This document shows, piece by piece, positions 2,481 through 21,286 of a DNA stretch of 64,000 nt. The stretch is from Tritonibacter mobilis (GTDB taxonomy: Bacteria > Pseudomonadota > Alphaproteobacteria > Rhodobacterales > Rhodobacteraceae), in assembly GCF_001681715.1 (NCBI RefSeq), contig NZ_LNWY01000024.1:62001-126000 (forward strand). The letters run 5' to 3'. Numbering within the stretch: position 1 is the first letter of the stretch; the number at the start of each line of letters is the position of its first letter. The notes under the pieces are model-generated. The model was not told the origin of the DNA, searched no databases, and was given only the letters and a program-made list of their open reading frames with translations. The translations under genes and the position numbers were made by a program.

Positions 2481-5297
2481 ATGTCTCATTCGCTTCAGGT
2501 TCACCGCTGCCCGCGCCCTTATGATTCCTCGATCAGCACCGAGGTGTTGTCTGATCATGGCCATCTGCCTTCCGAGTGGCAGGCACTGCTGGGCGGCACG
2601 GCGGGCAGTAGCCCTTATCTGCAAACCTTGATCCGCTCCGAGCGGAACTGGATCGAGGCGGCCCTGTCCGATCCCGAAGGCGCGCGCGACGCGGTGTTTC
2701 AAACCTGCCGCGCCTCTGCCCCGGATCAGGTGAAATCCGTGCTGCGCGCAGGCAAACGCCGGATCGCGCTGCTTTGTGCATTATGCGATCTTTCGGGCCA
2801 TTGGCCGCTCGAAGAGGTCACCGGCACGCTCACCCGGTTTGGCGAGTTAGCGGTGGATGTGGCGCTGAAGGCGGAAATCGCGCTGCTGATCAAACGGCGC
2901 AAGCTGCCGGGGATGAGCGAAGACGACATCGCCACCGCAGGCGGGATGAGCGTCTTTGCCATGGGCAAGATGGGCGCCTATGAGCTGAACTACAGCTCTG
3001 ACATCGACCTCATCTGCCTCTTTGATGAAACCCGGTTTGAACGGGATGACTTCCTTGAGGCCCGTCAGGCCATGGTACGCGCCACCCGCAATATGAGCGC
3101 GGCGCTGAATGACCGCACCGCCGAGGGCTATGTCTTTCGCACCGATCTCAGGCTGCGCCCGGACCCGTCGGTGACGCCAGTGGCGCTGGCGATGGCGGCG
3201 GCGGAACAGTATTACGAGAGCCTTGGCCGCACTTGGGAGCGGGCCGCCTATATCAAGGCGCGCAGCTGTGCGGGGGATATCGCGGCGGGCGAGAAGTTCC
3301 TCAAGACGCTGACGCCGTTCGTGTGGCGGCGGCATCTGGATTTCGCCGCCATTGAAGACGCCCACAACATGCGCCTGCGCATCCGCGAGAACAAAGGCAC
3401 CGGTGGCCCGATCACGGTTCTGGGGCACGATATGAAGCTCGGGCGCGGCGGCATTCGCGAGATTGAGTTCTTCACCCAGACCCGCCAGCTCATTGCCGGG
3501 GGGCGCGATCCGTCGCTGCGGGTGCGTGGCACGGTCGAGGGGTTGCAGGCGCTATCGCGCGCCGAGTGGATCTCGGCGGAGGTGTCCGACACGCTGGCGC
3601 GTCACTACCGCGACCACCGCGAGATCGAGCATCGCATCCAGATGGTCCATGACGCCCAGACCCACCGCATGCCCACCTCCGAGGAAGGTCTGTCGCGCGT
3701 GGCCTGCCTGATGGACGTGGAGCCGGAGGCCTTTCTTGCGGATCTGCGCGCACGGCTGGAAGAGGTGCACCGTCTGACCGAGGATTTCTTTGCGCCCGGC
3801 ACCAGCGCCAAACCGGCAGAGCCGCTGCCGGAGGATCTCGACCAATTGGTGATTGCGCGCTGGCCCAGCTATCCGGCGCTGCGTTCGGATCGCGGTGCGC
3901 GGATTTTTGAACGTCTGAAACCAGAACTGCTGAGCCGCCTGTCGCGCACCGCCAACCCGGGCGAAGCGCTTTTGGCGCTGGATGGGTTTCTGGCCGGGAT
4001 GCCCGCCGGGGTGCAGTTGTTTTCCCTCTTTGAGGCCAACCCGCAACTGATTGATCTGCTGGTCGATATTGTTGGCACCTCGCCCGCGCTCGCCAATTAC
4101 CTGTCACGCAATTCTTCGGTGTTTGACGCGGTGCTGGATGGCGGCTTTTTTGCCGACTGGCCCGGACGTGACGCGCTGATTGCGGAACTCAGGGAGGCAT
4201 TGGACAGTGAAAGCGACTATGAACGCCAGCTTGACCTGACCCGACGCTGGCACCGTGAATGGCACTTTCGCACCGGGGTGCATCACCTGCGCGGTCTGAT
4301 CGATGCCGACACCGCCGGTCAGCACTATGCGGATATTGCAGATGCGGTGATCATTGGCTTGCTCCCCAAGGTTACAGCGCAATTTGCCGCCAAACACGGG
4401 CCGATGCCGGGGCGCGGCTGCGTGATCCTCGGGATGGGGTCGCTGGGGGCAGGGCGGCTCACGGCGAGCTCGGATCTGGATCTGATCATGATCTACGACC
4501 CGCTTGATGATGAAATGTCCGATGGCAAACGCCCGCTGGCGGTGCGCCCCTATTATGCCCGCCTCACTCAGGCGATGGTGACTGCCCTGACCGCGCCCAT
4601 GGCGGAGGGGCGTCTCTACGAGGTGGACATGCGGCTGCGCCCCTCTGGCAATCAGGGGCCGGTGGCCACGAGTTGGCAGAGCTTCACCCAGTATCAGGAG
4701 AACGACGCCTGGGTCTGGGAGCATCTGGCGTTGACACGGGCGCGTGTGGTGGCCGGAGAGGACACACTCGCGCGGGATCTGGAGAAATTCCGCTGCGATT
4801 TCCTCGCCCGTCCGCGGGACCGAAGGGTGGTGCTGCAAGAGGTGGCCGAGATGCGCCGCAGGCTTGCGGCTGCAAAATCACCCGATGGGCCGTGGGACGC
4901 GAAAACCGGGCCGGGCCGGATGCTCGATATTGAACTGGCAGCACAGGCGGGAACGCTCTTGGCCGGGCAACCCACACGCTCGGTCGTTGATGGTCTGATG
5001 GCCGGTGTCGCCAGCGGTTGGTTAAGTGACGCGCAGGCGCAAAACCTGCGCGCGGCCTATGATCTATATTGGTCCGTACAAAGTGCTGCGCGGCTGATTG
5101 CGGGCAAAGGGTCAGATGGCGCGGTGCGCGGTGAGGGAGGGGCGGCCTTCCTGCAGCGCAGCACCGGCTTTGACGGTATCGCCAGCCTGCAACAGGCGCT
5201 TGAACACGCCTATGCACAGGCCGCAGATTGCATCGACACAGCCATTGGCCCAGAGGCTGAGATGAAGGACGAAAATGATGACGAAACCCTCAGCTGA
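2481..5297 (+). CDS. glnE: Bifunctional glutamine synthetase adenylyltransferase/deadenylase
   Basis: GlnE adds AMP to, or removes it from, glutamine synthetase in response to PII, and so sets nitrogen assimilation. The 938-residue product has the expected two nucleotidyltransferase domains. The deadenylase domain carries AMGKMGAYELNYSSDIDL near residues 160-180. The adenylylase domain carries GMGSLGAGRLTASSDLDL near 650-670, with Ser where many homologues have Lys. A linker and helical PII-response region lie between them. An in-frame GTG at 2397 would add 28 residues, but the family usually starts close to the ATG at 2481 (sequence CPRPYD follows soon after), so I chose that ATG. Neither start has a strong ribosome site. 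The 3' end overlaps the next gene by 23 bases. Confidence 0.93.
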   Translation: MSHSLQVHRCPRPYDSSISTEVLSDHGHLPSEWQALLGGTAGSSPYLQTLIRSERNWIEAALSDPEGARDAVFQTCRASAPDQVKSVLRAGKRRIALLCALCDLSGHWPLEEVTGTLTRFGELAVDVALKAEIALLIKRRKLPGMSEDDIATAGGMSVFAMGKMGAYELNYSSDIDLICLFDETRFERDDFLEARQAMVRATRNMSAALNDRTAEGYVFRTDLRLRPDPSVTPVALAMAAAEQYYESLGRTWERAAYIKARSCAGDIAAGEKFLKTLTPFVWRRHLDFAAIEDAHNMRLRIRENKGTGGPITVLGHDMKLGRGGIREIEFFTQTRQLIAGGRDPSLRVRGTVEGLQALSRAEWISAEVSDTLARHYRDHREIEHRIQMVHDAQTHRMPTSEEGLSRVACLMDVEPEAFLADLRARLEEVHRLTEDFFAPGTSAKPAEPLPEDLDQLVIARWPSYPALRSDRGARIFERLKPELLSRLSRTANPGEALLALDGFLAGMPAGVQLFSLFEANPQLIDLLVDIVGTSPALANYLSRNSSVFDAVLDGGFFADWPGRDALIAELREALDSESDYERQLDLTRRWHREWHFRTGVHHLRGLIDADTAGQHYADIADAVIIGLLPKVTAQFAAKHGPMPGRGCVILGMGSLGAGRLTASSDLDLIMIYDPLDDEMSDGKRPLAVRPYYARLTQAMVTALTAPMAEGRLYEVDMRLRPSGNQGPVATSWQSFTQYQENDAWVWEHLALTRARVVAGEDTLARDLEKFRCDFLARPRDRRVVLQEVAEMRRRLAAAKSPDGPWDAKTGPGRMLDIELAAQAGTLLAGQPTRSVVDGLMAGVASGWLSDAQAQNLRAAYDLYWSVQSAARLIAGKGSDGAVRGEGGAAFLQRSTGFDGIASLQQALEHAYAQAADCIDTAIGPEAEMKDENDDETLS

Positions 5298-5613
5298 GAC
5301 CGCATCTCTGGACCCCAAGGGGTTGGTTCGCGAGGCCTACCGGATAGAGGGGCTCGATGCCTCGCAATGCCGGAGCATCTTTCTGGATTGGGCACTTTCT
5401 GCGCCGATGGATTTTGACACCGATGCGGCGCTTTCAACGCTCTTGGCGCAATACGGGCCGCAGTTTCCCGACCATCCGATGACGCAGGTGTTGCGGGATG
5501 GCCTGAGCGGTGCTGTACGGCCCAAGCGGCGCGGTGGCTGGCGCTCGCGCGAGCGCGCACCGTTGACGGATCTTGGTTCTGGGCAAAACTCTGGACAAAA
5601 CGGCGAGAGCTGA
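5275..5613 (+). CDS. Small protein of unknown function overlapping glnE
   Basis: This 112-residue soluble protein has no signal peptide or membrane helix. The N-terminal two thirds look helical (GLVREAYRIEGLDASQCRSIFLDW, then a segment with FPDHPMTQVLRDGL). The tail is basic and low in complexity (RPKRRGGWRSRERA) and ends in Gln, Asn, Ser and Gly. The start lies inside the end of glnE, so it is probably translated from the same message. I do not recognise the family, though small glnE-linked proteins of this size occur in Rhodobacterales. Composition and frame usage fit a real gene. A second ATG follows immediately (5278). Confidence 0.7.
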   Translation: MMTKPSAETASLDPKGLVREAYRIEGLDASQCRSIFLDWALSAPMDFDTDAALSTLLAQYGPQFPDHPMTQVLRDGLSGAVRPKRRGGWRSRERAPLTDLGSGQNSGQNGES

Positions 5614-5818
5614 TCCAATCCCAACAGGCGGAATGGCTGCCTCTCGCCAAGATCTGCTGCGCCATACCGCGGCGTGGCCCCGTGATTGAGCACGCGCCCT
5701 CAAACATAGTTAACAACTCCTTAAAATGTACGCATCGCGCCAGATTTCCGCCCTGTTTCGCGCTCAGAAGGACAGTGTAAACAGTGCGGGCCTATCGTGC
5801 CCCCAAAAGGAGGTTATC

Positions 5819-5959
5819 GTGCGTATCACATCTGTCGTTGCAGTTGGCATTCTGGGATTAATCCTGACCGCTTGTACCGCAACGGATCAACCCACGCGAA
5901 ACGCATTTTCTGAACCACTGACCTATATCGCACCTGCGATTGCTCCGTTTCCGGGGTAA
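5819..5959 (+). CDS. 46-residue lipoprotein
   Basis: A strong ribosome site AAGGAGG precedes a GTG start at 5819. The product is MRITSVVAVGILGLILTAC followed by a 27-residue mature part containing TATDQPTRN and ending in PFPG. The hydrophobic segment ending in LTAC is a lipobox, so the Cys at residue 19 should be lipidated and the peptide anchored in a membrane. An upstream in-frame ATG at 5726 would bury the signal sequence and is rejected. Its role is unknown; it resembles the many tiny lipoproteins of alphaproteobacteria. Confidence 0.7.
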   Translation: MRITSVVAVGILGLILTACTATDQPTRNAFSEPLTYIAPAIAPFPG

Positions 5960-5999
5960 TCCTTGCGCAGGCCGAATGGCGCGACTGACAGCTGAACCT

Positions 6000-6031
6000 G
6001 CCACGCCCGGCATCCCGTCCGACGGCGTGGC
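6000..6031 (+). terminator. Hairpin after the small lipoprotein gene
   Basis: GCCACGCC and GGCGTGGC form a perfect 8-bp stem 40 bases past the lipoprotein stop, with a 16-base loop. Only GACATTTG follows, so it is a weak terminator candidate. Confidence 0.35.
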
Positions 6032-6109
6032 GACATTTGTGGTGAAATCATCGCCGCGCGCCTTCGTTTTCTCACTTGGGGCGGGCAGGGACTCGGGGTA
6101 TGTGGAGCC

Positions 6110-7327
6110 ATGACAGATGCATCCCTGACCCCGCCCACACGCCCGCGCGTGAAGATGAAGCCCAAATCCAATGCCCGCGCCATCCGCCACGGCTTTCCTT
6201 GGGTCTATGCCAACGAACTGGTGACCGACCGGCGCACCAAGAAACTCGCGCCCGGCAGCCTCGCGGTGCTGGAGGACGAGGCGGGCCGCAGCCTTGGGCT
6301 GGTGGCCGTAAACCCCGAAAGCAAGATCATCGCCCGGATGCTGGACCGCAACCCGGAGGCGCAGATTGATGTGGCGTGGTGTGCCGCGCGCCTGTCGCGG
6401 GCGCAGGAGTTGCGCGCCCAGCTCTACGATGCGCCGTTCTATCGTCTGGTGCACGCCGAAGCCGATGGGTTGCCCGGCGTGGTGATCGACCGTTTTGGCG
6501 ACACATGCGTGATGCAACCCAATGCGGCTTGGGCAGAGGCCCATCTGGAGGCTTTGACGCAGGCGCTGGGCGAGGTCACTGGCTGCACGGTGATCCTGAA
6601 AAACGCCTCCGGGCGCACCCGTGGGCTTGAGGGGCTGGACGATCAAAATGCGGTGCTGAAAGGCGCGGCCCCCGAGGCACCGGTGCCGGTGGTGATGAAT
6701 GGCGCCACCTATATGGCGGATCTGACCGGCGGGCAGAAGACCGGCCTGTTTTATGACCAGCGCGACAACCACGCCTTTGCCGCGCGTCTGGTGGCGCCGG
6801 GCGCACGGGTGCTGGATGTGTTCTCCCACGTGGGGGGCTTTGGTCTGGCGATGCTGGCGGCGGGCGCGGGGCATGCGACCTGCGTCGACGGTTCTGCTGC
6901 CGCGCTTGATCTTGCGACAGCGGGCGCCGCGGCCTCCGGCCACGGCGACAGGTTTGAAGCCCGTCAAGGCGATGCCTTTGACGTGCTGGCGGCACTTGGC
7001 GCGGAGGGCGCGCAATTTGATGTGGTGGTCTGTGATCCACCCGCATTTGCGCCCTCAAAACAAGCGCTTGAGGCGGGGTTGCGCGCCTATGAGCGGGTGG
7101 CAAAGCTGGCGGCCCCCTTGGTGAAGCCCGGCGGATATTTGGGTCTGTGTTCCTGCTCCCATGCGGCGGATCTGACCCGGTTCCGCAATGCTTCGGCACG
7201 CGGGATCGGCAAGGGCGGGCGGCGTGGGCAGCTGCTCCACACGGGCTATGCGGGCGCGGATCATCCGCAGATGCCGCAGCTGGCCGAGAGCGGCTATCTG
7301 AAGGCCGTGTTCTTCCGTCTCGATTGA
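6110..7327 (+). CDS. RlmI-family 23S rRNA cytosine-C5 methyltransferase
   Basis: This 405-residue SAM-dependent methyltransferase has an N-terminal PUA RNA-binding domain (about residues 14-85, from KSNARAIRHGFPWVYANEL). A short beta-rich linker leads to a Rossmann domain. Motif I reads VLDVFSHVGGFGLAMLAAGA near residue 233, the catalytic-loop motif IV reads CDPPAFAPSK near 307, and CSCSHAADLTRF lies near 347. GGQKTGLFYDQRDNH before motif I is typical of the RlmI/RlmK group, which methylates 23S rRNA. The exact target base cannot be read from the sequence. The PIN gene follows after 10 bases and is probably cotranscribed. Confidence 0.88.
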   Translation: MTDASLTPPTRPRVKMKPKSNARAIRHGFPWVYANELVTDRRTKKLAPGSLAVLEDEAGRSLGLVAVNPESKIIARMLDRNPEAQIDVAWCAARLSRAQELRAQLYDAPFYRLVHAEADGLPGVVIDRFGDTCVMQPNAAWAEAHLEALTQALGEVTGCTVILKNASGRTRGLEGLDDQNAVLKGAAPEAPVPVVMNGATYMADLTGGQKTGLFYDQRDNHAFAARLVAPGARVLDVFSHVGGFGLAMLAAGAGHATCVDGSAAALDLATAGAAASGHGDRFEARQGDAFDVLAALGAEGAQFDVVVCDPPAFAPSKQALEAGLRAYERVAKLAAPLVKPGGYLGLCSCSHAADLTRFRNASARGIGKGGRRGQLLHTGYAGADHPQMPQLAESGYLKAVFFRLD

Positions 7328-7337
7328 GGGCTCACCT

Positions 7338-7880
7338 GTGAAGCTGCTGCTGGATACCTGTGTGCTCTACCCGACGGTGATGCGCGAGATGCTGTTGGGG
7401 GCGGCGCGGGCGGGGCATTTTGTGCCGCTCTGGTCGGCGCGTATTCTGGGCGAGTGGGAACGGGCAGCGGTCAAACTTGGCCCCACCGGTGCGGCGCAGG
7501 CCAAAGCCGAGATCGCGCTGCTGAACGCGGGCTGGCCAAAGGCGGCGGTTGCGGCCAATTCGGGCCATGAGGCGCGTCTGTGGTTGCCGGATGAGAATGA
7601 CATTCACGTGCTTGCTGCTGCGATTGCGGGCCATGCGGATGGCATTGTGACCGTCAACGCAAAGGACTTTCCCCGCCAGACACTGGCGGAGGAGGGGCTG
7701 ACGCGCAGCGCGCCGGATGAACTGCTCTATGACTTTTGGCTGAAAGATCCCCAAGGTATCGAAGCCGTGGGGCAGGCGGTTCTGGCAGAGGCGAACCGGC
7801 TGTCCGGCGAGGTCTGGCAGATGCGGGCGCTGTTGAAAAAGGCGCGCTTGCCACGGGTTGCCAAGGCTTTGGGTCAATAA
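7338..7880 (+). CDS. PIN-domain protein, possible ribonuclease
   Basis: This 180-residue protein begins LLLDTCVLYP, whose Asp6 is the first acidic metal ligand of PIN-fold nucleases. Later acidic residues lie in LGEWERA, LPDENDIHVLAAA and VTVNAKDFPRQTL, in the order expected for a PIN domain (about 1-130). The C-terminal 50 residues are helical. The start is GTG at 7338, ten bases after the methyltransferase stop. No antitoxin-sized gene stands beside it, so a classic VapBC pair is unlikely. Coupling to an rRNA methyltransferase suggests a role in RNA processing, which is inference. Confidence 0.8.
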   Translation: MKLLLDTCVLYPTVMREMLLGAARAGHFVPLWSARILGEWERAAVKLGPTGAAQAKAEIALLNAGWPKAAVAANSGHEARLWLPDENDIHVLAAAIAGHADGIVTVNAKDFPRQTLAEEGLTRSAPDELLYDFWLKDPQGIEAVGQAVLAEANRLSGEVWQMRALLKKARLPRVAKALGQ

Positions 7881-7889
7881 CAAGGCCAC

Positions 7890-7939
7890 GTCCGACCGAG
7901 AGGTCGGACAGCCCCCGACCCTCCCCATGGGAGGGGGCT
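7890..7939. terminator. Double hairpin between convergent genes
   Basis: GTCCGACC-GAGA-GGTCGGAC (7890-7909) is a perfect 8-bp stem. It is followed directly by a second, bulged stem from AGCCCCC (7910) to GGGGGCT (7939) around CCATGG. The pair separates the convergent PIN and oxidoreductase genes and probably ends both transcripts, although no T-run is present. Confidence 0.5.
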
Positions 7940-7972
7940 ATACCCCCACTCAGGCTCGGAGGCGGTCCTTTG

Positions 7973-8959
7973 TTAACTGTTCCCCAAAATCTCTGCCGCG
8001 ATCTCAAAGGAGCGCAGCCGCGCGTCGTGATCGTGAATCTGCCCGGTCAGGATCACCTCATCCGGCTGATAAGTTTCGATCAGTCGCGCAAGATCTCCGC
8101 GCACCGTCTCCTTTGATCCGACCGCCGATATGGTCAGCGCCTGATTGACCCCTGCCAGGATCTCCGGCGCCAACACATCCGCGATATCATCCACCGGTGC
8201 GGGCAGCTTGCCGGGCATGCCCAGACGCAGGCGGGCAAAAGCCTGCTGCATGGTGGTGCGCAGCCGCTCGCCCTCGGCATCATTCTCGGCGGCAAAGACG
8301 TTGATCGCGAGCATTGCATGGGGTTCGGCGAGGGTCGGCGAGGGGCGGAACTGGCGGCGATAAACATCAAAGGCCTGCTCCAACGCTTGCGGCGCAAAAT
8401 GCGAGGCGAACGCATAGGGCAGCCCCAAAGTCGCCGCAAGCTGCGCGCCGTAAAGGCTTGATCCCAGCATCCAGACCGGAACCTGAGTGTTCTCTCCGGG
8501 TATGGCGCGCAGATTGCTGCCTTCACGCTGCGGCCCGAAATAAGAGATCAATTCCTGTACGTCCTGCGGAAACCGATCTCCGGAGTCCTGCAACCCGCGT
8601 CGCATCGCACGCATCGCCGCCATATCGGTTCCCGGTGCACGCCCCAGACCGAGGTCGATCCTCGGTCCATGGATCTCGGCCAATGTGCCAAAGGCCTCTG
8701 CCACCATGTAAGGCGCGTGATTGGGCAGCATGATACCCCCCGCTCCGATGCGCATGGTGGAGGTCGCCTGCGCGATATGGCCGATCATCACCGCCGTTGC
8801 GGCGCTGGCGATACCGGGCATATTGTGATGCTCCGCCAACCAGTAGCGGTGATAGCCCCAACGCTCTGCGTGTTGGGCCAGATCGGCACTATTGGCAAGC
8901 GCCTGAGCGGTGGTGGACCCTTCTGGCACCGGGGCGAGGTCGAGGACGGAATAGCGCAT
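7973..8959 (-). CDS. LLM-class flavin-dependent oxidoreductase
   Basis: The 328-residue product is a luciferase-like monooxygenase (TIM barrel using FMN/F420-type flavins). Family features include the N-terminal [14 protein letters not shown] strand, [17 protein letters not shown] near residues 37-53, [20 protein letters not shown] near 72-91 and [12 protein letters not shown] near 100-111. These match the MsnO8/YhbW-like subgroup, which is found widely and mostly lacks known substrates. The next gene upstream on this strand is the M48 protease, 90 bases away. Substrate is unknown. Confidence 0.88.
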
Positions 8960-9049
8960 GAAAACCTTCTCCTTGCCGGAAGGTTTAGGTGGGGATGCCC
9001 TGTGAGCGGAACAAGGGGCAAGCGCGGAATTATTTATCCGGTCCGATTG

Positions 9050-9736
9050 TCAGGCGTTGGTCCATTTGCCTTCGAGACGTTCAAGCGCGGCAATGCGCTC
9101 ATCCGTCTTGGGGTGGCTCATGAGCCATGCAGGGGCCATGCCCGCGCGGGAGTTGGTGAGTTCTTCCAGCTTGCGAAAGAGGCTCTTTTGCGGCTCCACA
9201 CCGATCCCGGCCTTGGTCAGAAGGGCGGCCGCATACTCGTCGGCCTCGTATTCATCGCCGCGCGACAGGCGCGCCGCCAGAAGGCTGGTAAGAACACCCG
9301 CAATCCACGGACCGACAAAGGGAATATAGCGCCCTATTACCATCATCAGCACTGTGCGCAGCGCGTTTTGGCCAGAAAAATCGATCATCCGTTTCTTGGC
9401 GTGCCCCAGTGCCACGTGGCCCAGCTCATGCGCGATAACGCTTGTCAGCTCCGCATCCGTGACCTCGCCGTTCTGAAACTTGCGATAAAATCCACGGGTG
9501 ATGAAGATGCGCCCATCGGGGGCGGCAAGACCGTTCACCGGGTCGATCTCATAGATGTAGACCGGGATACGCGGCAGTTCCAGCGCGGCGGCAAGCCGGT
9601 CGGTCATACGTTTGAGATGCGGATCGGCCAGCTCGCTCGAGCGGGCATCAAGTTCGCGGTGGGTGCGCCAAACGGACAGGCGGTACATCACCAGCCCGTA
9701 GATCACCGCCAAAAGGATGGGAGTCAGTCTCAGCAT
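9050..9736 (-). CDS. M48-family membrane metalloprotease
   Basis: With the start at ATG 9736 the product is 228 residues. It has an N-terminal membrane anchor (MLRLTPILLAVIYGLVMYRL), the zinc site HELGH at about residues 103-107, and the third ligand Glu in GDEYEADEYAA near 163. A hydrophobic segment (VLMMVIGRYIPFVGPWIAGVLTSLLAA) lies between them, as in HtpX-like M48 peptidases, which degrade damaged membrane or periplasmic proteins. A longer in-frame reading up to 9973 is non-native: it has a Pro/Thr-rich composition, precedes the membrane anchor and overlaps the divergent BNR gene. Typical HtpX is about 280-300 residues, so this is a short relative. Confidence 0.88.
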   Translation of the reverse strand: MLRLTPILLAVIYGLVMYRLSVWRTHRELDARSSELADPHLKRMTDRLAAALELPRIPVYIYEIDPVNGLAAPDGRIFITRGFYRKFQNGEVTDAELTSVIAHELGHVALGHAKKRMIDFSGQNALRTVLMMVIGRYIPFVGPWIAGVLTSLLAARLSRGDEYEADEYAAALLTKAGIGVEPQKSLFRKLEELTNSRAGMAPAWLMSHPKTDERIAALERLEGKWTNA

Positions 9737-18581: not shown

Positions 18582-18938
18582 GGCGGCCTCCGTTCTGCGC
18601 GTCTTCCTGTCTATCGCCGAAATCCGTCAGTGCCGCAAGCAACAGCACCCCGAGGGGCAACTGCAGACCACAGAGAATCACCTGCACCGGGGCAAGCCGC
18701 AAGTTTTCCTGTGCAACCAAGGGTATACATCATTTGGTTTTGCAATATTGAGCGTGTGAATAAACCTGTGTAATTTCTGTGAATAACTTAAATAGTTTTG
18801 ATGAATCAATTGGATGTTAATAAAAATTAAGGAAGAGTGAATGCGTTTAAATGTGAGGGATGTTGAAATTCTCTTGTTTTATTTTTTTGAGGTGGCAGGT
18901 TTTTAGATGTTGATTGCTCGGAAAGAAGGAGAAGTTCC
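18582..18938. promoter_or_regulatory. 357-base AT-rich divergent intergenic region
   Basis: The stretch from about 18721 to 18906 falls to roughly a quarter to a third G+C by eye, in a genome of about 60%. It should carry the promoters of xthA and of the SSTC-peptide operon. It also contains a 21-codon frame at 18841-18906 behind AAGGAAGAG. I see no clear operator palindrome. Confidence 0.55.
18841..18906 (+). CDS. Possible 21-residue leader ORF
   Basis: ATG at 18841 is preceded by TTAAGGAAGAGTGA, a good ribosome site. The frame encodes a 21-residue hydrophobic peptide with LLFYFF in the middle, and ends at TAG 33 bases before the SSTC-peptide start. It could be a regulatory leader ORF or chance. 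There is no homology to rely on. Confidence 0.25.
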   Translation: MRLNVRDVEILLFYFFEVAGF

Positions 18939-19154
18939 GTGGTTGCACTGAGGAAATCCGTCGTAGAAGTTACCGTTGAAACGGGCGCATTTGCTGGTGA
19001 AAATGTTGGGCTCGTAAGCTCCACATGTCTCGATGGCAAACATGAAGGCGGTCACGTATCGCTTTATAGTTCCACATGTATTTCCGCCTCCGCAACGGAT
19101 GCACTGGCAGGCGACGCGACCCAGATGGTGTCTTCGACCTGCATTGAAAGCTAA
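18939..19154 (+). CDS. 71-residue peptide with three SSTC repeats, candidate precursor peptide
   Basis: The GTG start at 18939 has AAGGAGA eight bases upstream. The first 25 residues (MVALRKSVVEVTVETGAFAG onwards) are plain and leader-like. The rest contains three copies of [VY]SSTC[LI], at residues 26-31, 43-48 and 64-69; the last is followed only by Glu-Ser. All three cysteines of the protein lie in these repeats. Between them are Gly/His/Asp/Ala-rich spacers (LDGKHEGGHVSL, ISASATDALAGDATQ). There is no signal peptide or membrane helix. A regular Ser-Ser-Thr-Cys core with a leader-like N-terminus, next to an unknown protein and an exporter, is what a multi-core ribosomally made, modified peptide would look like. 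A small metal- or thiol-handling protein is the alternative. It may already carry a DUF number. Confidence 0.75.
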   Translation: MVALRKSVVEVTVETGAFAGENVGLVSSTCLDGKHEGGHVSLYSSTCISASATDALAGDATQMVSSTCIES

Positions 19155-19241
19155 GCGCTCGCTTGGCTTTATTTGAATATGTCTCGTGATCCGGATTCCC
19201 CGGGTCACCGAGGCAATCTCTTTACGTCCTGAGAGGTATTC

Positions 19242-20306
19242 ATGGGGCAGGTACTTTCTTTTTCCAATGCGCGTCTGAATAAAGCCAGAACCGGTGTGTC
19301 TGGATTATTGGAATCTTTTGGTTCATTCCGAAGAGATCCGTTGGATGTATTGTGGTTGAAAGAAAATGCAGAGCTTCTCAATGTTTTAGAAACCACAGAT
19401 TGTAATATATCTGAAGGCGGTCTTGAGCCACTGCTTCCTTTTTATGAAGGCAGCCTCCGGCATCTGAATTTTTTCCGTCAGTATTACCGGTTTATTCTGT
19501 CGATCTGCCTCGATCTCGAGGATCTGGGCGTTCCCGGACAGCGGGGCGAAGTTATGGCTGAATGGATTACCAGCCAGAATGTAGGCGCGCATGAGCTGTC
19601 GGATCTGCAACGGGGAGAGGCGCGCAGGTTGCTGGCACGGCGCGGCGTTGAATTGCGCGATGTAGAGGGGCTTGATGACCGACTGCGCGCCTTTATGCGG
19701 CGCACCTCAGGCTTTGCGGTGCCAAATCGTAAGGCGGCTTATGAGCTCACGCATGTGGTGTTTTACCTCACAGAATATGGTCGTAAGCCGCTGCAACTGG
19801 AAGAACCAGAGCGTCAAAGCCTATTATTTGCCGGTTTGATTGCGTTTTTGGATCAGGATTCCGATCTTTTGGCCGAAATTTGTATTGCTCTTACGTTTTG
19901 CGATGAGCAGCCGCCGCAAGATTGGTGCCATTGGCTGGAGCGACAAACACAGCGATTTACCCTGCAATCCGTTCCGGGGCGGGTCGGTCACGATGACTAC
20001 CATCCCTACCTTATGTGCAACTGGTTTCAACTTCTGGTTGGACGCACGGGTTTTTCTGATGCAGACTGTAAAGGTACGGTTGTGATTGAAGGGCCGGGGC
20101 GTCCCGGTGCGTTGCGAGGCATGTCGATGGCACTCTATACCCTGTTGGATCAAGCGCCCGGATCTTGGGCGCGGGTGCGCGAGCCGCTGCTGCAATCGCT
20201 CAGTTCCGAAGAGGGGGACGTGCTGCGTCGCGCCGAAGAAAGCACTCAAGTGTTCGAACCTTTCTTTGAGACATTCTCTCGGTTCGGCCAAGTGGGCAGC
20301 GCATGA
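19242..20306 (+). CDS. 354-residue protein of unknown function in the SSTC operon
   Basis: ATG 19242 follows GAGAGGTATTC. The soluble, mostly helical 354-residue product has no signal peptide and no motif of kinases, radical-SAM enzymes, YcaO or methyltransferases that I can see. Notable features are FFRQYYRFILSICLDLEDLG near 83-102, KAAYELTHVVFYLTEYGR near 164-181 (an aromatic helix with one His), FCDEQPPQDWCHWLERQTQR near 223-242, and DDYHPYLMCNW near 252-262. Its first 100 codons use more A+T than the neighbouring genes. Its end overlaps the transporter start by four bases (ATGA), so the two are translationally coupled. It is the best candidate for a dedicated partner, perhaps a modifying enzyme, of the SSTC peptide. 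That role is inferred from position only. Confidence 0.8.
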   Translation: MGQVLSFSNARLNKARTGVSGLLESFGSFRRDPLDVLWLKENAELLNVLETTDCNISEGGLEPLLPFYEGSLRHLNFFRQYYRFILSICLDLEDLGVPGQRGEVMAEWITSQNVGAHELSDLQRGEARRLLARRGVELRDVEGLDDRLRAFMRRTSGFAVPNRKAAYELTHVVFYLTEYGRKPLQLEEPERQSLLFAGLIAFLDQDSDLLAEICIALTFCDEQPPQDWCHWLERQTQRFTLQSVPGRVGHDDYHPYLMCNWFQLLVGRTGFSDADCKGTVVIEGPGRPGALRGMSMALYTLLDQAPGSWARVREPLLQSLSSEEGDVLRRAEESTQVFEPFFETFSRFGQVGSA

Positions 20307-21286
20307 ATGCCATCACCGCAGGGGTGTTGGCGGTGTTGCTCTACACGGGGCTGATTGCTGCTGCGGATGGGATCGTAAAGATGATGGCCGGGGGATTTGC
20401 CCCGGCACAATTGTTCGCGGTCTCCGGTCTGCTGGTTGCCGGGTTTTGCGCGATTGTCAGCCGGGTGCAGGGGCACCCCGACGGATTGCGGACCACCTGC
20501 AGGCGGGCCATGATGCTGCGTTCGGCTGCGACCGTTCTGTCCTGTACGTCGTTTTATCTCGCGTTTCGCTATCTGGCCCTGGCGGAGGTTTTTGTCTTTA
20601 TCGCGTTGATGCCCTTGATGGCGGCGCTGATGTCCGGGGTGATCCTGAAGGAACGCATCCGTCCTGTCGTGTGGCTGGCGCTCAGCCTTGGGGTCGTGGG
20701 TATTCTGGTGATGCGCCCGACGGTGCAGGTGGGCGGTGTCATTGGTTCGGCTCTGGCGGTGAGTGGCGTGGGCTTTGGGACGCTGTCGATCATCATGGCG
20801 CGCTATATCAGCCGCTATGACAGCAATGTCTTGGCGCAGGTGTTTTACCCCAATCTGACGCTGGGCATCGTGATGATGTGCTTTCTGCCCTTCGTCTGGC
20901 GCCCGATGGAAGGTGCGGATGTCGGGTGGATCGGAGCCTATGCCGTATTGTTGTTTGGCGCGCGCTGGCTGCTGGTTCTGGCGCTGAGACAATTGCCAGC
21001 CTACACGGTGACGCCGTTGCTCAATCTGCAATTTGTCTGGATGGCCCTGATCGGCTTGTTGTTTTTCGGCGAAGTGCCTTTTGTCTCGACCTATCTCGGG
21101 ATGGCAGTGGTTGCGGCATCCGGGGTGTTTTTGATCTGGGATCAGGCGCAGGGCACGCGCAGGGTGCCGGTGGCCGCCGCAGTCGTCACGCCCAACGCCA
21201 GCCGACGCCGCGGGCGCCCTGAGGCGCGCGGCATCACCGAAGGGCGCAGTGTCCGGCGCGGTGGCGCGTGGCGGGCGGGGCGCTAA
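20303..21286 (+). CDS. DMT-superfamily (EamA) transporter of the SSTC operon
   Basis: The 327-residue product has ten hydrophobic helices in two EamA repeats. The first runs from ITAGVLAVLLYTGLIAAADG to about residue 140, and the second from VGGVIGSALAVSGVGFGTL to about 280. It ends in a basic cytoplasmic tail (RRRGRPEARG). EamA proteins usually export small metabolites or amino acids. The ATGA overlap with the upstream 354-residue protein makes it part of the peptide operon, where it may export the product or a cofactor. It is convergent with erpA, 30 bases apart. Confidence 0.9.
   Translation: MNAITAGVLAVLLYTGLIAAADGIVKMMAGGFAPAQLFAVSGLLVAGFCAIVSRVQGHPDGLRTTCRRAMMLRSAATVLSCTSFYLAFRYLALAEVFVFIALMPLMAALMSGVILKERIRPVVWLALSLGVVGILVMRPTVQVGGVIGSALAVSGVGFGTLSIIMARYISRYDSNVLAQVFYPNLTLGIVMMCFLPFVWRPMEGADVGWIGAYAVLLFGARWLLVLALRQLPAYTVTPLLNLQFVWMALIGLLFFGEVPFVSTYLGMAVVAASGVFLIWDQAQGTRRVPVAAAVVTPNASRRRGRPEARGITEGRSVRRGGAWRAGR

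Follow-up and report, generated by a model that had tools for sequence, protein, structure and literature searches.

In the 64,000 nucleotides of Tritonibacter mobilis DNA analysed here (the whole stretch is called the window), a gene for a peptide of 71 residues precedes a gene for a protein of 354 residues, and this gene pair looks like an apparently undescribed ribosomal peptide system of many marine Rhodobacteraceae. Its general feature is a four-residue word, which is repeated within the small peptide and differs between species, the SSTC word of the window being a local variant. We consider it fairly probable that the small gene encodes a multi-core ribosomal peptide whose word is modified by the 354-residue protein, a member of the Pfam family DUF6902 (PF21843), to yield a species-specific short product, most simply a signal.

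The pairing of the two genes was followed in 116 loci, namely the window, 37 loci from a contig scan for relatives of the 354-residue protein (Rhodobacterales, one metagenome-assembled genome being labelled alphaproteobacterium only) and 78 from a family search. The latter found DUF6902 above the cut-off in 80 of the 292 genomes searched from the order of the window; besides the window itself, 78 of those loci were fetched, and the last of the 80 (G150), a broken locus, was kept outside the 116 count. Class-wide, three of 289 genomes have DUF6902 above the cut-off, each belonging to the same family as the window, a single weak match lying elsewhere, and no DUF6902 was found in the plasmids searched. 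A small open reading frame (ORF) of precursor kind lies directly upstream of DUF6902 in 114/116 loci (104 distinct peptides), and a repeated four-residue word is present in 113/116, the ORF of locus L151 having two copies that differ. The two loci outside the 114 are L029, with a degenerate peptide, and that of genome G117 (L145), with no peptide. A profile of two repeats (A3), built from 37 rows, 16 of them from the searched genomes, so that part of the matches arise by construction, matched, at E ≤ 0.01, 75 of the 80 genomes with DUF6902 and two of the 212 without, a total of 77 out of 292. These two (G074, E 0.006; G101, E 0.008) were considered as candidates for a repeat peptide without the enzyme and rejected, as the matches appear by eye to be antisense to unrelated frames. 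Among the five DUF6902 genomes missed by the profile, G023, G073, G253 and G274 carry a divergent peptide on inspection, and G117 has no repeat peptide at the locus or elsewhere in the genome at E < 0.1. Homologues of the 354-residue protein are thus not commonly without a peptide, nor is the peptide confined to this strain, either of which would have spoken against the initial annotation. Because of the pairing in 114/116 loci and the co-occurrence across the 292 genomes, DUF6902 very probably acts on the adjoining precursor, as that annotation had proposed.

In the window, the pair is followed by a transporter gene of the drug/metabolite transporter (DMT) superfamily, and we identified the following features:

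18939..19154, forward strand: multi-word precursor peptide gene, 71 residues, GTG start (ORF with Shine-Dalgarno sequence, conserved in nine relatives)
19017..19028, forward strand: word copy 1, SSTC (from the sequence; columns without amino-acid change across nine aligned peptides)
19068..19079, forward strand: word copy 2, SSTC (from the sequence and the nine-peptide alignment)
19131..19142, forward strand: word copy 3, SSTC, with codons unlike those of copy 1 (codon comparison)
19180..19237, forward strand: strong hairpin between the peptide and enzyme genes, then a stem pairing part of the enzyme ribosome site (folding)
19242..20306, forward strand: DUF6902 protein gene, 354 residues, probable peptide-acting enzyme (Pfam profile, conserved residues)
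20303..21286, forward strand: EamA/DMT transporter gene, an optional part (PF00892, E 3e-15)

The strong ribosome site of the small gene, its three SSTC motifs holding all the cysteines and the ATGA overlap between the DUF6902 and EamA genes, described beforehand, are borne out by the sequence: AAGGAG ends seven bases ahead of the GTG start, all cysteines of the 71-residue peptide sit inside its three SSTC words (preceded by V, Y and V and followed by L, I and I, respectively), and the overlap falls at 20303-20306. The copies of SSTC are written with different synonymous codons. The 71-residue peptide has no family match in Pfam, NCBIfam, PADLOC or PHROGs, and the three proteins of the trio matched 0 families of the PADLOC anti-phage defence models.

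Across the loci, the repeat unit can be approximated as G-x-x-x-x-[LMA]-F-word-x-P and occurs 2 to 16 times in the 107 loci counted, numbers in which a few copies are false or were missed (e.g. L020, L154, L137). We assigned 39 word labels in 114 loci, 38 of them with a defined last residue, since the label of L037 ends in an undefined letter and that of L151 rests on a single copy. Besides SSTC, the words include SSGS, TTSM, TTSC, TSGL, TSSL, TSCA, TSWS, SSAS, PTSN and others. SSTC is the commonest word in 10 of the 104 distinct peptides, mainly those of close relatives of the window; the conservation expected of this motif therefore holds among close relatives, and the literal motif is not general. 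The mean identity of words was 0.885 within a precursor (103 precursors) versus 0.357 between species (5356 pairs), and, by position, the identity within a precursor was 0.71 for the residue before the word, 0.85-0.92 for the word and 0.37 for the residue after it; the generic motif used in this analysis counts a few false copies (e.g. L010), so that repeat numbers are slightly inflated. The commonest word is free of cysteine in 85/114 loci, as are 28 of the 39 word labels, and one member of the window's own genus uses SSGS, which has no cysteine; cysteine or thiol chemistry is thus not supported as the point of the peptide. The last position of the word is never glycine across the 38 words in which that residue is defined, and the last counted word ends the precursor in 72/107 loci. 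Words may differ among close relatives: genus g3 has seven word labels in ten loci, and genus g34 has three words with enzymes 75-79% identical. Precursors with two words (L132, L128, L113, L120 and L137, e.g. TSGS then TTSC) were also observed and are possible intermediates of a word switch.

The constancy of the word within a precursor could be due to recent duplication, and we examined the codons beneath it. In 1368 pairs of copies with diverged flanks, word positions are 0.87-0.92 identical, whereas the codons of same-residue positions agree in only 0.43-0.52, like those of other positions of the unit, and pairs of word serines show a switch between TCN and AGY codons in 395/2971 cases. 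Recent duplication as the cause of the like words is therefore ruled out, and, since the word stayed constant while its codons drifted between copies with diverged flanks, selection, as read from these sequences, keeps the word at the amino-acid level. In the nine precursors close to that of the window, the proportions of nonsynonymous (pN) and synonymous (pS) differences are 0.000 and 0.481, respectively, in the SSTC columns, and 0.249 and 0.664 in the other columns, with a pN/pS of 0.33 for the whole peptide. What is expected of the precursor of a ribosomally synthesized and post-translationally modified peptide (RiPP), i.e. that it is ribosomally encoded with a leader and a core, is found here as a small coding ORF under purifying selection with a repeated core.

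The 354-residue protein had been regarded as unrecognised. It matches DUF6902 over residues 1-347 (418.7 bits versus a cut-off of 27, E 2e-125) and, more weakly, DUF6895 (PF21836) over residues 72-228 (69.2 bits versus 23.8, E 5e-19). Four residues, Y167, H171, D208 and E212, are invariant in nine aligned proteins (five DUF6902 and four DUF6895), an alignment made before the G117 enzyme was compared, and three of the four DUF6895 proteins have a YH aligned with H254, the remaining one being short. H254 is present in 114 of the 116 enzymes, the exceptions (L030 and L167) lying at contig ends. Y167, H171 and D208 are each replaced once among the 116, always in G117 (Y167R, H171R and D208S), and the peptide-less locus thus has the sole enzyme that has lost three of the four residues invariant in DUF6902 and DUF6895. 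Cysteine 214 was considered as a catalytic residue and rejected, being replaced in 4/116 enzymes. The AlphaFold2 model of the protein (mean predicted local distance difference test score, pLDDT, 89.8) is almost wholly helical; Foldseek found no usable relative of it in the PDB (best E 0.19) or in BFVD (best E 0.36), nor did a profile search against the sequences of the PDB (best E 0.57), though the protein may still share a distant known fold. Our literature search found no paper on DUF6902, and nothing relevant on such precursors or multi-core RiPPs in Roseobacter, Rhodobacterales or Rhodobacteraceae, nor on the motif and accession strings.

A lead to the chemistry comes from the DUF6895 relatives. 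The initial annotation saw no known class of modifying enzyme nearby, so that any chemistry would be new; that the enzyme is unrelated to anything is not supported, given its kinship with DUF6895, and the title of one paper calls a DUF6895 protein an epimerase in lasso peptide modification (Shi et al., ACS Catal. 2026, title as cited in PMC13352647). Based on this title and on the absence of glycine from the last word position, which is statistically weak evidence, Cα epimerisation is the best lead and our leading guess, by analogy, for the chemistry of DUF6902. Lasso-peptide B protease and C cyclase genes are not among the named neighbours in the window, and nothing was found in the literature on the linaridin epimerase CypI. 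MslH, an unrelated lasso epimerase, relies on a metal and on His/Asp acid-base residues, according to the part of the source available (PMC10406935), and serves as a working analogy only, being a metal-dependent epimerase that acts on the C-terminal residue of its precursor; the same part describes a calcineurin-like fold, unlike the all-helical model of DUF6902, for which Foldseek gave no match in the PDB.

DUF6895 proteins were found outside the group in four loci confirmed by Pfam (L084-L087) and in four on plasmids by tblastn only (L169-L172), and these eight were surveyed for small ORFs, with the sub-cut-off L088 and L089 left out. A small peptide ORF with the motif [LI]-x-x-[SA]-G-[ILA]-[IVL]-[DN] precedes the DUF6895-like gene in L084 (6119-8576), L085 (5955-7637), L087 (5724-7186), L169 (7708-9737), L170 (7398-9317) and L171 (7329-9455); the small ORF of L086 is less clear, and L172 has a 63-residue ORF of a different look. 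The small peptides, linked to DUF6895 in three phyla, have this leader-like motif and, in many cases, a tail of aromatic or hydrophobic residues (e.g. LVGPWFVL), and are probably another family of peptides associated with this enzyme superfamily. The L172 locus (5833-9688), on a Streptomyces fungicidicus plasmid, has two adjacent DUF6895-like genes (by eye) between its 63-residue ORF and a serine hydrolase gene. DUF6902 resembles DUF6895 in profile homology, in the shared Y/H/D/E residues and, in most of the DUF6895 loci surveyed, in the position of the gene directly after a small peptide ORF, and differs from it in being a separate Pfam family with repetitive precursors, whose matches above the cut-off were confined, in the genomes searched, to the family of the window.

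By tblastn, the EamA gene is downstream in 63/116 DUF6902 loci (L030, L037 and L167 end too soon to judge), and in genomes without DUF6902 it lies within 1500 bases of erpA in 1/30, hence EamA goes with the peptide-enzyme pair yet is dispensable. The multi-core precursor with a modifying enzyme and an exporter, as initially proposed, is accordingly retained in its plain leader, repeated core and adjoining protein that very probably acts on the precursor, and not in its exporter, which is not constant; an export-coupled operon as a constant unit was rejected, and a dedicated protease or exporter, usual though not required in a RiPP system, is not a regular part of the loci as probed. The site is nearly fixed, with xthA upstream in 114/116 loci and erpA downstream in 109/116 (tblastn). 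In the window, the trio is flanked by xthA (exodeoxyribonuclease III) on one side and by an ErpA-like gene, dgt and argS on the other, and no protease is among the named neighbours (FAD monooxygenase-like, xthA, EamA, ErpA-like, dgt and argS); elsewhere neighbours were probed with six window proteins only. Two further loci were noticed. L176 (G041), which lacks DUF6902, carries EamA between xthA and erpA, possibly after secondary loss of the pair. In G150, a premature stop interrupts the peptide and the enzyme is broken up across reading frames, and this copy (L090, about 4076-6873, reverse strand) is a decaying system in which EamA is still partly open.

Folding of positions 19150-19245 of the window gave a minimum free energy of -41.1 kcal/mol (z -4.83 versus dinucleotide shuffles). 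The statistics are weaker elsewhere: of the 107 intergenic stretches folded, a stem of 8 bp or more occurs in 76 and z < -2 in 43, with a median z of -1.45 (mononucleotide shuffles). The hairpin may set the peptide-to-enzyme ratio, so that more peptide than enzyme would be made.

We propose that the small gene would give a precursor consisting of a short leader and some 2 to 16 core words, each preceded by a recognition stretch that approximates to G-[DE]-x-[TV]-x-[LMA]-F. The all-helical DUF6902 protein would recognise this stretch and modify the word, most likely via a Tyr/His/Asp/Glu/His site, perhaps by Cα epimerisation; the words would next be released by proteases as short peptides, perhaps in modified form, and would exit via EamA in about half of the lineages and by another route elsewhere, and the product would be a species-specific small molecule, most simply a signal. 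The sequences show the pairing, the anatomy of the repeats, the selection on the amino acids of the word, its difference between species and, in the single cases of G117 and G150, the joint loss of peptide and enzyme; we infer the modification of the word by DUF6902, its chemistry, the release and export of the product and its signal role alike. As to the role, the best lead is a signal, since the copies agree within a cell while species differ, as in fungal mating factors and repeat precursors (PMC7329392).

Microviridin-type bacterial multi-core RiPPs use ATP-grasp ligases and have longer cores. The proteins of the window trio, by contrast, show no ATP-grasp ligase match. Several cores per precursor, as in the part of a microviridin study available to us (PMC5934393), are a shared trait. 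The available part of a study on fungal Kex2-processed repeat proteins, which comprise mating factors and the precursors of ustiloxin and phomopsin, describes many copies of one short core (a tetrapeptide such as YAIG), a neighbouring DUF enzyme in 22% of cases and core combinations suggested as species signatures (PMC7329392). The system described here is similar in its many copies of one short core, in the difference of this core between species and in the neighbouring DUF enzyme. The fungal systems, as far as that part goes, have a signal peptide, Kex2 sites and DUF3328 proteins (PMC7329392), whereas the enzyme here is DUF6902, and, by eye only, no signal peptide was seen in the precursors and no dibasic sites next to the words.

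Several observations weigh against the proposed modification and signal role. Residues trail the last counted word in 35/107 loci, so that the word is not always C-terminal, and four of these (L113, L115, L129 and L132) close with another word; two words, arranged in blocks, can occur in a single precursor (in L132, for example, TSGS and TTSC), and the two copies of L151 differ. The same word is found in 65/73 pairs of loci with enzymes 70-80% identical, and in 12/12 above 80%. The epimerase lead consists of a paper title and a distant homology (DUF6895 profile, E 5e-19, residues 72-228). The G117 case is a single event, in an enzyme that retains E212 and H254 and is off-consensus at 12 conserved columns in all. 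In L029, a degenerate peptide lies beside an enzyme with an intact site. As to release and export, no protease is among the neighbours probed, and EamA is missing from about half of the loci. A more specific form of the proposal, in which each species encodes a tetrapeptide word in up to 16 copies, a helical, perhaps metal-dependent enzyme family modifies it, perhaps by epimerisation, and marine Rhodobacteraceae use the released word for cell-cell signalling specific to the species or lineage, is held only tentatively and is on balance doubtful: congeners with enzymes 70-79% identical can carry different words, as expected for a signal of the mating-factor type, and the word shared by 65 of the 73 pairs lowers its odds slightly.

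The main rival, which we regard as unlikely, is that DUF6902 is a processing enzyme that cuts out the words, the product being an unmodified linear tetrapeptide signal, as fungal mating factors are. The sharp word borders, the lack of a protease among the neighbours probed and an H/D/E/H set which, judging from the invariant residues, could bind a hydrolytic metal are in agreement with cleavage. However, the sole activity found for the superfamily is epimerisation, as named in a paper title; family profile searches gave no protease match for the protein and no HExxH-like motif was seen by eye in its conserved columns; and a C-terminal word, with which 72 of the 107 loci end, needs no cut on its far side.

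Somewhat less likely again is an ordinary multi-core RiPP antibiotic or toxin, whose core would be varied by competition and not by signalling. A multi-core precursor with an adjoining enzyme and sometimes a transporter would fit such a system, as would a core that can differ between congeners, but the nearly fixed chromosomal site between xthA and erpA does not, and where EamA is absent there is little room for immunity, regulator or ABC genes. Moreover, the word copies mostly agree within a precursor, which leaves little product diversity. It is improbable that the peptide is an inhibitor, a scaffold or a regulatory leader peptide of DUF6902 and not the source of a product: the close peptide-DUF6902 pairing and, between the window genes, the strong hairpin and partly paired ribosome site are compatible with this, yet neither role needs many copies of a strictly kept word, and the codons are not conserved, unlike in codon-dependent attenuation. 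A thiol or metal buffer built on the SSTC cysteines, the alternative raised in the initial annotation, agrees with the position of all three cysteines of the window peptide in words but is highly improbable, being refuted as a general role by the cysteine-free words of 85/114 loci, and the conserved cysteines of a metallothionein or thiol buffer are lacking from 28 of the 39 word labels.

If the proposal is right, a ribosomal peptide system so far undescribed would be present in about a quarter of the sampled genomes of the order (80/292); no relative of solved structure was detected for its enzyme family, and some 38 naturally occurring core variants would be available for tests of how the substrate is read. 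The lineage-specific word would allow a direct test for a tetrapeptide signal in this marine group, and the DUF6895/DUF6902 superfamily, whose genes adjoin small peptide ORFs in three phyla, would offer a new means of finding modified peptides.

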